DNA of 64,000 nucleotides, from the NCBI RefSeq assembly GCF_009733535.1, contig NZ_SMMI01000004.1:1-64000 (forward strand), written 5' to 3'. The DNA is from Sphingobacterium endophyticum. Its GTDB lineage: Bacteria; Bacteroidota; Bacteroidia; Sphingobacteriales; Sphingobacteriaceae. Below the pieces are notes generated by a model, which saw only the letters and a program-made list of their open reading frames with translations, had not been told where the DNA came from and made no database searches. How positions within the stretch are numbered: position 1 is the stretch's first letter; each line of letters starts with the position of its first letter. Below are positions 2,646-55,168 of the stretch, piece by piece. Both the position numbers and the translations under genes were made by a program.

Positions 2646-3896
2646 TTATTGAAATGAACCATTTCGGTAAGTCCTAATTTTCACCGCTTGATTCACATAG
2701 CCCCAAGTTGGGTTATAGTTGAATTGATAATCACTGAATATACCAGCGTATTTTTCTTCTACAACTTTTTCTGCATATGCTGGCCCATATTTATTTAATA
2801 AGGTTGCAAAATATTTGCCAGCATCAAATCCTTTATATGCATAATCAGAAGGATCAACTTTGAACATACTCTTATAATTCTTTTGGAAATTTTGAACCTC
2901 CGTACTCCAAACTTTTAAATGACTTTCTGAAGTAATTGTTGGATCCATCCTATAAAAATTATCATAAGGTTTGAAATCAATACGTGACCAAAGTGGATGT
3001 CCATAAAGTCTAATTAATGATCCACTACCAACTTTTGAATCTAATGAGTTAATTAATGATCTTAATTGAGTCTTTTCAGTAGTTCCACTGATTACTAGTG
3101 CTGTGCCCATTTCGGGAATAGTCTGTCCTAATTGAGATACCGATGTTACATGAACAATCTTTGCCATAGGATTTATTTTCTTCACTTCCTCATCGAATCC
3201 AGCAATGAAATTACGATGATCATTATCTCTTGCGTCAAAAACAATAATAACGTCACCATCCCTATAATTTTTCATCATTTCCCCAACAATAGCCCGCATA
3301 TGAATGCGAATAGGAGGAGTTAAGGAAACTAAATTTGCAATATTAAATTCCGTAGGCATAGTAGCTGCCAATGGATTTACCTGTAGGACTTTGTTGTTTT
3401 TATTACCTTTCGCAAAGGAACGTATTTCTTTTGGATAGACAGGACCAACAATTAAGCTAGCATTTTCAACCTCTTTAGATGCAGCTATTGTAAGATTCTT
3501 CATCTCATTATCCTGCGTATCCATAACCTTTAAATTGAAATCACCAGGCTTCTTAGATGCTTCATTTACACCTAATTGAAACCCTTGGTAAAAATCCAAA
3601 GCTAATGCAGAACGCTTAACATCTGCTTCAACCACATTTTGGTTAGCAATCATGTTCAACTGAAATGGTAAAAGCAGAGCAATGTTCTTCGATTGATCTG
3701 CTGCATTTACCGCATCTTCTTTTTTTGAGTCTTCTTTTTTCTCTTCTGATTTTGTATTACCAGTATTATTTCCAGTATTACCATACACATTTGGGTTTTT
3801 TAAAACACCACCTGTGGTTTTTGGCGAACAAGAACTAACAGCTAGTACCGCACCTAAGCAAAAGGCAGCAAAAGTACCTCTATAAATGTTTTTCAA
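2646..3896 (-). CDS. LppC/ABC-type periplasmic-binding-fold lipoprotein
   Basis: With a TTG start at 3896 the product is 416 residues. It begins with a textbook lipoprotein signal (basic start, hydrophobic core, AVSSC lipobox), then a Lys/Glu/Asn-rich linker and a Leu/Ile/Val-binding type I fold (Peripla_BP_6/LppC-like, with IVGPVYPKEI). LppC/LpoA proteins activate penicillin-binding proteins; Bacteroidota homologues are mostly uncharacterised. An ATG at 3968 is also in frame but would overlap guaA by 71 bases and place a non-signal extension before the signal peptide, so TTG one base after the guaA stop is preferred. No LysM domain is present. Confidence 0.75.
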   Translation of the reverse strand: MKNIYRGTFAAFCLGAVLAVSSCSPKTTGGVLKNPNVYGNTGNNTGNTKSEEKKEDSKKEDAVNAADQSKNIALLLPFQLNMIANQNVVEADVKRSALALDFYQGFQLGVNEASKKPGDFNLKVMDTQDNEMKNLTIAASKEVENASLIVGPVYPKEIRSFAKGNKNNKVLQVNPLAATMPTEFNIANLVSLTPPIRIHMRAIVGEMMKNYRDGDVIIVFDARDNDHRNFIAGFDEEVKKINPMAKIVHVTSVSQLGQTIPEMGTALVISGTTEKTQLRSLINSLDSKVGSGSLIRLYGHPLWSRIDFKPYDNFYRMDPTITSESHLKVWSTEVQNFQKNYKSMFKVDPSDYAYKGFDAGKYFATLLNKYGPAYAEKVVEEKYAGIFSDYQFNYNPTWGYVNQAVKIRTYRNGSFQ

Positions 3897-51811: not shown

Positions 51812-53275
51812 ATGTTAAAACAAACTTTACAACAAAAATTATTACAGAAACTATCACCACAGCAAATTCAATTCATTAAACTTCTTCAGGTACCAACCGT
51901 CTCCTTAGACGCCAGAATCAAAGAAGAACTTGAAGAAAATCCTGCATTGGAAGATGGAAGCTTGGCTAACATGAATGATCCTGTTGAAGAATATCCAGAT
52001 AAAGATCCTGATGATGACTTTAACATGGAAGATAATAACTACGAAGATGAATTTAGTGTAGATGAATATATCCAAGAGGATGATTATAGAGACTACGGTG
52101 GTGGATATGACCACGATGATGACGAAGGTAAAAAGGAAATTCCAATTGCCGTCCAAGATTCTTTCTATGAAAACCTCCAAAATCAACTCGACCTTTTAGC
52201 CCTTTCTGATAAAGACTATGTCGTTGGACAACAAATAATTGGCTCATTGGACGATGACGGATACCTAAGACGACCCCTGCTATCTCTCATTGATGACTTG
52301 GCATTTTCTCAAAACGTTATTGTAGAAGAAGAGGATGTCGAAGAAATGCTTAAAATCGTTCAGTCTTTCGACCCTGCTGGTATCGGTGCCCGAAACCTTC
52401 AGGAATGTTTGGCTATACAGCTCCGAAAAAAAGACCAAAACAATCCCATTATTCAACAGGCTATGTTGGTCGTAGAAAATTATTTGGATGAATTTACCAA
52501 AAAACACTATGATAAAATAGAAAAACAACTAGGGGTAAATTCAGAGGAATTGAGAGAAATCGTAAATGAAATCTTAAAATTAAACCCTAAACCTGGAGAC
52601 TCTGGCGCTGTTGCAGGTAAACAATTGCAAATAATCCCGGACTTCCATATTTCTAATAATGATGGAACACTACATTTAACCCTTAATGGTAGGAATGCTC
52701 CGGAACTTAGAGTTTCTCGATCTTATCAAGAAATGTTCGAACATTATGAAAAGGCCGAAAAAAACGATAAAAAAATGCGCGAAGCAGTCCAATTTGTTAA
52801 ACAAAAACTGGATTCTGCTAAATGGTTCATTGATGCAATCAAACAAAGACAGCAAACCCTCCTCAAAACAATGAATGCAATCATGGAGTATCAATATGAT
52901 TACTTCCTAACTGGAGACGACAGAATGCTTAAACCAATGATATTAAAAGATATCGCTGATAAAATTGAAATGGATATCTCAACCGTATCTCGTGTCGCTA
53001 ACTCCAAATATGTACAAACAGAATTTGGAACTTTTCTCTTGAAATCTTTCTTCTCAGAAGCTATTCAAACTGAATCTGGTGAAGAGGTTTCTAATAAAGA
53101 AGTCAAGAAAATCCTTGAAGAATGTATTGCTAATGAGGACAAAAGAAAACCTTTAGCTGATGAAAAACTTACCGAAATTTTAAAAGATAAAGGTTATTCT
53201 ATTGCCCGTCGAACCGTAGCAAAATATCGGGAAGCTATGAATATCCCTGTTGCTAGGTTGAGAAAAGAACTTTAA
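51812..53275 (+). CDS. rpoN: RNA polymerase sigma-54 factor
   Basis: The 487-residue protein has the region I Gln/Leu-rich activator-responsive start (LQQKLLQKLSPQQIQFIKLL), a strongly acidic region II (about 45-110), the core-binding domain, and a DNA-binding domain ending in the RpoN box ARRTVAKYRE (about 468-477). It directs RNA polymerase to -24/-12 promoters and needs an AAA+ activator; none is encoded nearby. Length is normal. It is monocistronic. Confidence 0.97.
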   Translation: MLKQTLQQKLLQKLSPQQIQFIKLLQVPTVSLDARIKEELEENPALEDGSLANMNDPVEEYPDKDPDDDFNMEDNNYEDEFSVDEYIQEDDYRDYGGGYDHDDDEGKKEIPIAVQDSFYENLQNQLDLLALSDKDYVVGQQIIGSLDDDGYLRRPLLSLIDDLAFSQNVIVEEEDVEEMLKIVQSFDPAGIGARNLQECLAIQLRKKDQNNPIIQQAMLVVENYLDEFTKKHYDKIEKQLGVNSEELREIVNEILKLNPKPGDSGAVAGKQLQIIPDFHISNNDGTLHLTLNGRNAPELRVSRSYQEMFEHYEKAEKNDKKMREAVQFVKQKLDSAKWFIDAIKQRQQTLLKTMNAIMEYQYDYFLTGDDRMLKPMILKDIADKIEMDISTVSRVANSKYVQTEFGTFLLKSFFSEAIQTESGEEVSNKEVKKILEECIANEDKRKPLADEKLTEILKDKGYSIARRTVAKYREAMNIPVARLRKEL

Positions 53276-53303
53276 TTCTTTTCTCAACTATTTTTTCTAA
53301 ACC

Positions 53304-53335
53304 TTTGCATTTTTAAATTTAATCTACTAAGTTTG
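53304..53335 (+). promoter_or_regulatory. Promoter of the structured RNA / 86-residue ORF
   Basis: TTTG (53304-53307), 20 bases, TAAGTTTG (53328-53335) is an exact match to the Bacteroidota primary-sigma consensus. The expected start, about 5 bases downstream, falls on position 53340, the first base of the outer helix of the predicted RNA structure. Confidence 0.75.
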
Positions 53336-53339
53336 TAGA

Positions 53340-53456
53340 GTATTCAGAATTGCAAGTGCAATACCAACCGAGTGAAAATCACCGCGGTGGTAAATCGATA
53401 CGGGCATCATGCCAAAATAAATGATTATCGTAAAGTCTTGATGACTATCTGAATGC
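53340..53456 (+). ncRNA. Putative structured RNA (five-helix junction)
   Basis: The 117 bases fold into a closed multi-branch structure. P1: 53340-53348 with 53448-53456 (9 bp, one G-U). P2: 53349-53353 with 53358-53362. P3: 53363-53375 with 53379-53391 (11 bp, one bulge, one small internal loop, AAA loop). P4: 53396-53400 with 53426-53430, enclosing the small hairpin 53403-53413. P5: 53434-53437 with 53443-53446. An alternative helix (53348-53354 with 53454-53460) would break P1 and P2, as in a switch. I recognise no riboswitch consensus. It may be a leader of the ORF that starts 33 bases later, or an independent RNA. Confidence 0.55.
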
Positions 53457-53488
53457 AATTATGGTTAAACCCTTTAAACATTAATTGT

Positions 53489-53749
53489 ATGTCTAACACA
53501 AAACCTCTTCAACAGCATCTTGTTGAACAATTCCAAAACTATTCTACAAATGAATTAGTAATCCTTAACAATGATTTAGTTAATTCAAATTGGGGAGCTA
53601 ATAAAACAGCTTTTAGAACCGCACTTTTAAGTACCTTGTCAAGTCGTGGTATTGATCTTTCCGCAATTATTAGCACCGAAGATGGATTTACCCAAATTCA
53701 CCGTGTCCCTGTTAAACTAACAGATAACAAATTAATCCCAATCTGCTGA
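53489..53749 (+). CDS. Small soluble protein, unknown
   Basis: The ATG at 53489 (chosen over an earlier in-frame ATG at 53453 that overlaps the RNA element) gives 86 residues without signal peptide or membrane segment. It is rich in Asn, Leu, Thr and Ser: a helical first half (QHLVEQFQNYSTNELVILNN) followed by a segment resembling a small alpha/beta unit (AALLSTL-like helix, then IHRVPVKLTDNKLIPI). I do not recognise it. Its position behind a promoter and a structured leader suggests a regulated gene. Confidence 0.6.
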   Translation: MSNTKPLQQHLVEQFQNYSTNELVILNNDLVNSNWGANKTAFRTALLSTLSSRGIDLSAIISTEDGFTQIHRVPVKLTDNKLIPIC

Positions 53750-53770
53750 ATCTAGATGCACAATACCAAA

Positions 53771-53895
53771 ACTCCATAGGAGTGCTATATCTATAACTCC
53801 GTAGGAGTGCTATATCCATAACTCCGTAGGAGGGCTATATCCATAACTCCGTAGGAGTGTCATATCCATAACTCCGTAGGAGTGTCATATCTATA
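53771..53895. repeat. Five tandem 25-bp palindromic repeats
   Basis: Five contiguous units of 25 bp (starting 53771, 53796, 53821, 53846, 53871) vary at a few positions. Each contains a CTCC-GTA-GGAG hairpin (CTCC-ATA-GGAG in the first unit) followed by an AT-rich spacer. There are no unique spacers, so this is not a CRISPR array. It resembles REP-like extragenic palindromes. It occupies the gene-free stretch 53750-54070. Confidence 0.9.
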
Positions 53896-54070: not shown

Positions 54071-55168
54071 CTACTGTCTCCCAACCGCATATAATGCAAA
54101 AGTGCCCAACCAATGACTTCCCATATAATCATCCTTTGCACTTAAATTCCCAATGGAATAATTAAAATGATCAACTCCCACCTTCTTAAGATGTGCCAAT
54201 TTTGGGTCTACCTTCGATAATCCAAATAAACAAGCAGCCCTACTATAATTCAAACCATCTAAATGCACCAATTTACCATCACTCCGATCTTTAACGATCG
54301 CTGGCGATAATGCAAAAGAGCTTTTATATAAATCTGGCATAAAATTCTTCAACCAACTTAAATACTCAGATTTCCCTAGTACCTTACTCATTAAATAGGC
54401 CTCTTCCAGACAAGGTGAAAGAAAATCGTACCCACTTGGCTCATAAGATAGATCACAATGCTTATCATGCTGAAAAAGTCGCACAGAATTCTCAATAATT
54501 GCATTTTTAAACAACTCATCTCCAACCGTATTGGCATAATCCAATGATAGTGTAAGACTAAATGCAGAATTATCATGTTGTCCTGCACGAATTGGATAGA
54601 CTAATTTTGGAAGATATTCAATATATCGTTGGACTAACAGATCAACCAATGGTTGCAAAGTAGCTTTCCAACGCTTCCCATCATTGTCATCCCAAGTTGA
54701 TAATTCTTCCTGCAATTTGAATAACCAGGCCCATCCATAAGTACGTTCAAATCCCAAATTATTCTTATCATTGAAAAATGAAATCTCTATTGCAACATTT
54801 GCAGGTGTAATATGTTGGTTCAATGATAACCTTACTTTCCCATCATGATCTAATTCTGGAAACTGCTTTAATAATTTAATAATAGACCAATATCCATGAA
54901 CTGAAGAATGCCAATCAAAACAACCATAAAATACTGGTCTTAAACTTTTCGGACTTTTTAAATCTGTGTCCGATCCTAAAACCTGACCTAATTTATTTGG
55001 ATATTCAATTTCAATGCAATGAGTCGGCATTTTAAAAATAATCTCAGATAATTTAGAATCTAATGTAATCCCTGCTACTTGTTGATTTTCTTCTTGATCC
55101 GATCCGTTTTTACATCCAGAAAAAAACAAAATTATAAGTACAAATAGGTTTATAAAACTTTTATTCAT
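54071..55168 (-). CDS. DUF2891 lipoprotein
   Basis: The 365-residue protein has a lipoprotein signal with the lipobox FFSGC (Cys about 19), then the DUF2891 domain. Its hallmarks are RPVFYGCFDWHSSVHGYW (about 77-94), YEPSGYDFLSPCLEEAYLM and DYMGSHWLGTFALYA near the end. The fold is an alpha/alpha toroid like those of glycan-processing enzymes, but the family has no proven activity. It is convergent with the repeat region and divergent from the DUF937 gene. Confidence 0.88.
   Translation of the reverse strand: MNKSFINLFVLIILFFSGCKNGSDQEENQQVAGITLDSKLSEIIFKMPTHCIEIEYPNKLGQVLGSDTDLKSPKSLRPVFYGCFDWHSSVHGYWSIIKLLKQFPELDHDGKVRLSLNQHITPANVAIEISFFNDKNNLGFERTYGWAWLFKLQEELSTWDDNDGKRWKATLQPLVDLLVQRYIEYLPKLVYPIRAGQHDNSAFSLTLSLDYANTVGDELFKNAIIENSVRLFQHDKHCDLSYEPSGYDFLSPCLEEAYLMSKVLGKSEYLSWLKNFMPDLYKSSFALSPAIVKDRSDGKLVHLDGLNYSRAACLFGLSKVDPKLAHLKKVGVDHFNYSIGNLSAKDDYMGSHWLGTFALYAVGRQ

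Follow-up and report, generated by a model that had tools for sequence, protein, structure and literature searches.

In the accessible part of the report that defined them, SAM-I/IV riboswitches are variants of SAM-I and SAM-IV without the internal loop in P2, found in several phyla and in marine samples (PMC2864571). The excerpted account of SAM-IV gives its fold a pseudoknot, PK-2, that joins the P3 region to the 3′ end, and presents SAM-I/IV as devoid of PK-1 and equipped with a P4 helix (PMC6890682). An excerpted survey gives translation attenuation as the commonest mode outside the Firmicutes, with exceptions (PMC2258182). Bacteroidetes mRNAs, for their part, are described as lacking Shine-Dalgarno sequences, and in Flavobacterium johnsoniae structure near the AUG tunes initiation (PMC6847099, in excerpt). 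The literature search, from which subscription papers were mostly excluded and whose negative outcome is accordingly weak, returned no paper on a SAM-I/IV riboswitch in Sphingobacterium.

The locus described here lies on the forward strand of a 64,000-nucleotide stretch, called the window, of the Sphingobacterium endophyticum genome. With a probability of roughly 0.8, a SAM-I/IV leader with its own promoter controls the small gene at 53489-53749 at the level of translation, probably in the OFF sense, with SAM as the predicted ligand. The aptamer membership follows from computation: a search of 53250-53520 against the Rfam library with permissive filters matched RF01725 (SAM-I/IV riboswitch) at 53335-53429 (+) with 49.8 bits and an E-value of 1.6e-7, above the gathering score of 41.1 bits that serves as the criterion of class membership. 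RF01725, and not RF00162, was the best match of the element within the SAM clan. On its sequence, the RNA thus belongs to a known riboswitch class and is predicted to bind SAM. A new RNA class is ruled out by the same score, and matches to csRNA1 and AbsR25, far below gathering, were rejected. An earlier note on this DNA had seen a structured element matching no riboswitch that it recognised, perhaps one not described before, and had proposed an Rfam search as a check of the supposedly unknown class; that search returned a known one, to which most of the relatives tested likewise belong. Its wider picture, a riboswitch-like leader that has its own promoter and can adopt two states, is supported by computation.

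The element is absent from the whole-window Rfam scan (curated thresholds, fast filters), which listed a single tRNA, and from the genome-wide RF01725 search. As the score itself suffices, speed filters are presumably the cause, and the case is a caution that a whole-window Rfam scan can miss an element scoring above the curated cut-off. The genome-wide search reported two weaker places instead (L111 and L112), which score better as SAM-I riboswitches (RF00162, 71.9 and 69.2 bits). The ORFs that follow these two copies we take to be metE and metF. Since SAM-I riboswitches thus precede metE- and metF-like ORFs at no fewer than two places in the same genome, SAM sensing fits the biology of the organism. 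Among relatives, the RF01725 gathering score was reached in 7/7 loci tested from the genus (Sphingobacterium, here and below, by kinship assignment) and in 15 of 20 further loci; two of the latter fell just below it (L156 and L158; 40.0 and 38.1 bits) and three had no match (L145, L146 and L149). Our own model, R1, scored the window aptamer at 96.8 bits, the window itself being among its training rows.

The segment 53335-53470 folds at -36 kcal/mol compared with a mean of -24.0 (sd 3.0) for dinucleotide-shuffled sequences (z -4.0), and none of 200 shuffles was as good. The five helices that the earlier note had placed in 117 bases are recovered in the minimum-energy fold, where a 9-bp P1 (53340-53348/53448-53456) closes four further elements. 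The RF01725 alignment pairs part of the same 5′ strand elsewhere, 53340-53344 with 53397-53401. Because both helices use 53340-53344, they are mutually exclusive, and the P1 of the earlier note is the ligand-free antisequestor, not the P1 of the aptamer.

The aptamer P1 proper (5′ strand 53340-53344, 3′ strand 53397-53401) is paired in 150/150 cells across 30 genus rows. P2 (53349-53362; 53349-53354/53357-53362) is free of an internal loop and shows two-sided changes in all six of its pairs on 23 rows of diverse aptamers, and P3 with its apical stem (53363-53391) carries a core, CCAACC and GGTGG, that is invariant on the same number of rows. A hairpin 3′ of P1 (53403-53413; 53403-53406/53410-53413), the counterpart of SAM-IV P5, keeps its three outer pairs in 82/90 genus cells, with two-sided changes in 2/3 pairs. 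Pairing of the RF01725-like helices over the 23 diverse aptamers amounts to 91.1% of cells, and 47 cells are changed on both sides compared with 16.5 (sd 3.5) in shuffled alignments, none of 500 shuffles being as high; every slid version of the helices gave fewer two-sided changes than the true register. Two coarser counts, the number of aptamer pairs with a two-sided change (10) and the number of pair types, were not above shuffles (81/500 and 191/500 as high, respectively).

The helices of the earlier note fared unequally in the 30 related genus sequences. Its P1 was paired in 267/270 cells, its P2 in 150/150 and its P3 in 309/330; its P4 was paired in 100/239 and its P5 in 32/84. All pairs of either P4 or P5 are kept in one row of the 30, the window itself, so that the two look local to this species, and as conserved helices they were rejected for their poor pairing. 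The earlier note would have counted it against the element if its helices were missing from relatives with the promoter: P1 to P3 are retained and P4 and P5 are lost. The 7-bp helix 53348-53354/53454-53460, proposed as the competitor that creates a second state, can indeed form and the pair of states is real; it is paired in 176/208 cells and complete in 5/30 rows, however, compared with 150/150 cells for the aptamer P1, and was rejected as the conserved alternative. The conserved competitor is the aptamer P1 instead.

Compared with SAM-I/IV as described in the available text of PMC2864571 (RF01725, 'SAM-I-IV-variant'), the element is alike in score, loop-free P2, P3 core and the hairpin 3′ of P1. 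It differs in that most genus members show no evident PK-2-like pairing and in that the gene it is predicted to control encodes an undescribed small protein and is no methionine gene; a further difference is its antisequestor/sequestor platform over the start codon, described from computation. PK-2 is described for SAM-IV, where it links the P3 loop with the 3′ tail, and is assumed for SAM-I/IV; a pairing of this kind at -4 kcal/mol or below was found in 6/30 genus, 3/8 divergent and 4/11 phylum leaders, the window candidate reaching -4.5. Like SAM-IV, as far as the accessible account goes, the element has a hairpin after P1, in the position of P5, whereas SAM-IV has P2a and P2b with PK-1 and the window P2 is one short helix (PMC6890682). 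With SAM-I (RF00162), it shares the ligand-binding core common to the clan, and at least two SAM-I copies reside in the same genome; those copies precede metE- and metF-like ORFs, the window element a small ORF. SAM-I platforms with the ribosome-binding site in the 3′ side of P1 resemble it in tying SAM-dependent translation control to P1; compared with these, in so far as they are detailed in the excerpt of PMC2258182, a separate antisequestor competes with P1 here and a further hairpin covers the AUG.

Given that just some of the peripheral features are typical, with PK-2-like pairing not evident in most of the genus, and that the genes downstream of the class outside the genus mostly have no assigned function, the aptamer could be a variant that senses another ligand, such as S-adenosylhomocysteine or a SAM analogue. 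The invariant P3 core on 23 rows argues against this, as does the placement of family members before a SAM synthetase and a Cys/Met enzyme, and we consider a change of ligand quite unlikely.

The promoter proposed in the earlier note holds exactly: TTTG, the -33 element of a Bacteroidota-type promoter (53304-53307), is followed after N20 by TAAGTTTG, the -7 element of the form TAnnTTTG (53328-53335). In 38/43 loci, TTTG or TTG stands ~16-27 nt before a TAnnTTTG-type box, with the strict TAnnTTTG likewise in 38/43 and the boxes upstream of the aptamer. Transcription would be expected to start near 53340, judging by the position of these boxes. The preceding ORF (51812-53275, +) presumably encodes a sigma-54 factor (rpoN), a name that we take from the earlier note and from a C-terminal box; the nearest named loci for its product are in Sphingobacterium mizutaii and S. 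cellulitidis, at 97% identity. A terminator scan found a hairpin with a T-run at 53256-53289 (+), after this gene, which may end the upstream transcript. Since the element DNA was matched in just three of 80 loci fetched with the upstream gene (L031, L032 and L066, all close relatives), that gene lies outside the riboswitch unit, and control of the element tied to it was rejected.

The proposed switch consists of two competing helices. In the antisequestor, 53340-53348 pairs with the 3′ strand 53448-53456; in the sequestor, 53453-53461 pairs with 53482-53490, a strand that lies over the start codon and includes its AU. Both were examined in 49 leaders, comprising 30 distinct genus loci, eight from the set of 20 further loci and 11 of 17 non-genus loci. 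Ten loci with a riboswitch were not entered (L147, L148, L150, L152, L155-L158, L160 and L162), six were omitted because the ORF was distant or not an orphan or because the aptamer lay off centre (L196, L201, L203, L204, L207 and L208), and near-duplicates were counted apart (L157/L161, L199/L209 and, among IMG/VR contigs, L238/L239, with the same protein and aptamer). The antisequestor register was picked by duplex energy, which favours pairing, a bias addressed by swap and shuffle controls. The shuffle z was -3 or lower in 41/49 leaders and above -3 in eight. For 25 distinct strand pairs, 0.88 of ten positions were paired, compared with 0.749 after swapping strands between leaders (sd 0.021, maximum 0.812 of 2000), and the 14 pairs without the genus 5′ strand gave 0.886 compared with 0.767 (sd 0.025, maximum 0.843). 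The strand pairs, whose types include GTATTCAGA/TCTGAATAC, GCATCAAGA/TCTTGATGT and GTATTCCGA/TCGGGATAC, show two-sided changes at 5/10 positions. Genus members all share the same 5′ strand, so that no pair changed on both sides among them; the antisequestor owes its covariation solely to other families, and the 30 genus rows, being related, are not independent.

The six outer pairs of the sequestor (53453-53458/53485-53490) are present in 179/180 genus cells. In 18 distinct non-genus leaders the duplex averaged -7.74 kcal/mol compared with -2.99 on swapping strands (sd 0.57, best -4.73 of 500), and for all 35 distinct leaders the reported change on swapping was from -7.74 to -4.25 kcal/mol (sd 0.36). 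When the stretch running from the antisequestor 3′ strand as far as the AUG was folded, at least one AUG base was paired in 45/49 leaders, with a segment z of -2 or lower in just 32/49. The sequestors of three phylum leaders (P_L195, P_L197 and P_L200) are almost absent, and in P_L206 the sequestor stops short of the AUG, on its upstream side. Both competing helices are thus conserved and show compensatory change by computation. Attenuation of transcription, intrinsic or Rho-dependent, in place of start-codon hiding would find a parallel in two phylum loci, those with the Cys/Met PLP enzyme (L204) and the SAM synthetase (L208), where GC-rich hairpins and T-runs were seen by eye after the aptamer. 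The window scan found no terminator-like site between aptamer and AUG, and the conserved hairpin covers the AUG with strands that compensate each other across the phylum, which makes attenuation unlikely at this locus.

Folding with one or the other helix enforced showed the antisequestor state to be the more stable in 47/49 leaders, by a mean of 2 to 5 kcal/mol across three groups. The region from AUG-8 to +3 was less paired in that state, by more than 0.05, in 45/49 leaders, on secondary structure only; the AUG triplet alone was more paired in it in some leaders (for example L006, L022, L026, L027, L199 and L209). The combination of greater stability and a more open start region is the pattern expected of a SAM-OFF translational switch, and in the computed folds two helices exclude each other, the closing of one setting free a strand that can cover the start of translation. 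In the absence of SAM, the 5′ strand of P1 and J1-2 (53340-53348) would pair with 53448-53456, leaving the AUG region comparatively open so that the small protein would be made. In its presence, the aptamer would close P1 (53340-53344 with 53397-53401), releasing 53453-53461 to pair with 53482-53490 and to conceal the start codon. We infer SAM binding, the direction of regulation and any role of the protein beyond its production when SAM is scarce.

The direction would be reversed if translation really began at position 53453, where the antisequestor 3′ strand contains an in-frame ATG that SAM would then expose. This codon shares the frame of 53489, and the listed frame starts with it in the window and in four other loci (L001 is the window; L003, L031, L032 and L006), but in 26/31 loci the listed frame begins elsewhere. 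Moreover, the antisequestor strand ends in ATAC, with no ATG, in 21/30 genus leaders, and the second AUG is where the homology profile begins. An ON switch is therefore very unlikely, and 53489 is retained as the start in the proposed OFF switch.

The predicted target, the 86-residue ORF at 53489-53749 (+), begins 32 nt after the end of the P1 drawn in the earlier note. Variation by codon position is 0.25/0.12/0.47 (16 of 30 rows), the median dN/dS is 0.23 (11 unsaturated pairs), and on these computed measures the ORF looks protein-coding. Searches with 30 members gave weak matches only, each in one or two members, both in Pfam (best E 0.02) and in NCBIfam (best E 0.0094); a gene of SAM or methionine metabolism downstream is usual for the class without defining it, and these weak matches are all that was found here. 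The PHROGs search also gave weak matches only, a CARF-like PADLOC match of the window protein (E 0.007) was too weak to be credited, and a search of PLSDB plasmids did not find the window protein. No sequence relative of the small protein was found in the PDB. A structure model from a four-sequence alignment reached a pLDDT of 81.9 with a pTM of 0.69 as the best of five (54.8 to 81.9), and searches with it against PDB and viral structures gave no match at E <= 0.001. By its sequence the partner protein family seems new, and an involvement of the protein in SAM metabolism is possible. The small ORF is followed directly by a 25-bp tandem repeat, CCATAACTCCGTAGGAGTGCTATAT, which extends over 53766-53895 in 5.2 copies, its unit containing the near-palindrome CTCCGTAGGAG, and a DUF2891 protein (54071-55168, minus strand, E 3.8e-124) adjoins the unit.

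An ORF of 85-92 codons follows the element in each of 32 loci, and 30 of these ORFs were aligned as one family. A DNA search with the element matched 38 of 201 family genomes, two of which (G110 and G164) match solely over query bases 12-44, before the aptamer core. The protein profile found members in 65 of the 68 same-genus genomes among 301 family genomes, those of G265 and G283 being divergent. In the genomes G000-G250, and on the presumption that the R1 search spanned all of them, an R1 match stands 34-71 nt upstream of 52 of 55 protein places, and the small protein follows 52 of the 62 R1 places. The three unlinked proteins are in G031, G034 and, as a second copy, G187. The ten R1 riboswitches without the protein are in G038, G092 (four), G129, G149 and G023 and in second copies in G187 and G074; the small ORF of G038 is a divergent relative (A6 match, E 9.9e-6). 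G092 is also the source of a stretch (L154:1138-1656) with two SAM-I/IV riboswitches ~420 bases apart, each before its own ORF (84 and 429 residues). The linkage, established by computation, leaves the stand-alone ncRNA entertained in the earlier note unsupported, because the spacing is 34-71 nt in 52/55 places. A structured leader with no regulatory function, or a free-standing small RNA, would accord with the promoter-like boxes of the element and with the terminator-like hairpin that separates it from the upstream gene, but neither would account for near-constant spacing to one gene family or for compensatory changes that involve the start-codon region, and this is the least likely of the readings considered.

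Beyond the genus, the R1 search of 395 phylum genomes gave matches in 18, three of them in the genus, and all 17 non-genus R1 places are RF01725 above gathering. The ORFs downstream of four of these encode a Cys/Met PLP enzyme (L204), a SAM synthetase (L208) and AAA ATPases (L196 and L203); the remaining 13/17 had no Pfam match over the cut-off, in one case (L209) by near identity to another (L199). The two ATPases are MoxR-like and come from two different families of the phylum. An A6 search of the same 395 genomes gave seven matches, of which three were clear and four marginal (E 0.001-0.005). As the clear matches are all in the genus, the small protein appears to be rare in chromosomes outside it. 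A divergent version of riboswitch and small ORF, including broken or truncated copies, was seen in various genera and one viral contig (L144, L145, L146, L150 and L222) and looks mobile.

Among viral contigs, the aptamer-core pattern found 20 stretches. Rfam was run on 17 of these, and eight carry RF01725 at gathering, at nine sites, six of which are followed at once by an ORF of 83-91 residues; L221 has two other ORFs, one of them N-formylglutamate amidohydrolase-like, and in L222 the ORF is cut short. The viral small proteins and the genus protein are homologues (hhalign probability 98.4, E 6.5e-15, profile A2 compared with profile A5, the latter including two chromosomal members as well); a search of viral contigs with A2 found no relative, and one with A5 did. 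The protein search of IMG/VR returned eight contigs, two with the same protein, and six of the eight have RF01725 above gathering directly upstream of the small protein. L245 has no adjoining RF01725, though its contig has one elsewhere (L222). In L241, upstream of position 3001, ~60 inserted bases appear by eye to separate the P3 core of a SAM-I/IV riboswitch from the P1 3′ strand. In six IMG/VR loci (L213, L214, L224, L228, L229 and L230) the 3′ end of the riboswitch touches the AUG of the homologous small proteins; in two of them (L214 and L224) the P3 loop AGGATA could, by eye, form a PK-2-like direct platform by pairing with the TATCCT that immediately precedes the AUG. Integrase-like and ArdC-like ORFs, read by eye from translations, occur near IMG/VR riboswitch sites.

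The novelty of the locus probably resides in its partner, a conserved and undescribed small protein that is probably under SAM control through a switch over the start codon, and the start-codon-covering layout is likely common to unrelated genes across the phylum. We would go further only tentatively, to an idea that is possible but doubtful as a whole: the SAM-I/IV riboswitch and the ~85-residue family may form a portable SAM-scarcity module of the Bacteroidota, near-universal in the genus and present on IMG/VR contigs with a different and more direct start-hiding platform, which would be a new SAM-homeostasis effector or a response to SAM depletion, in a phylum where the class mostly guards proteins annotated without a function (13/17 non-genus loci). 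A riboswitch names the metabolite to which its gene answers, and a small protein present in 65/68 genus genomes thereby acquires a testable link to SAM. The findings suggest how a translational switch may operate in a phylum without Shine-Dalgarno sequences in its mRNAs, the AUG itself being covered, and they point to further proteins of no known function behind the same riboswitch class.
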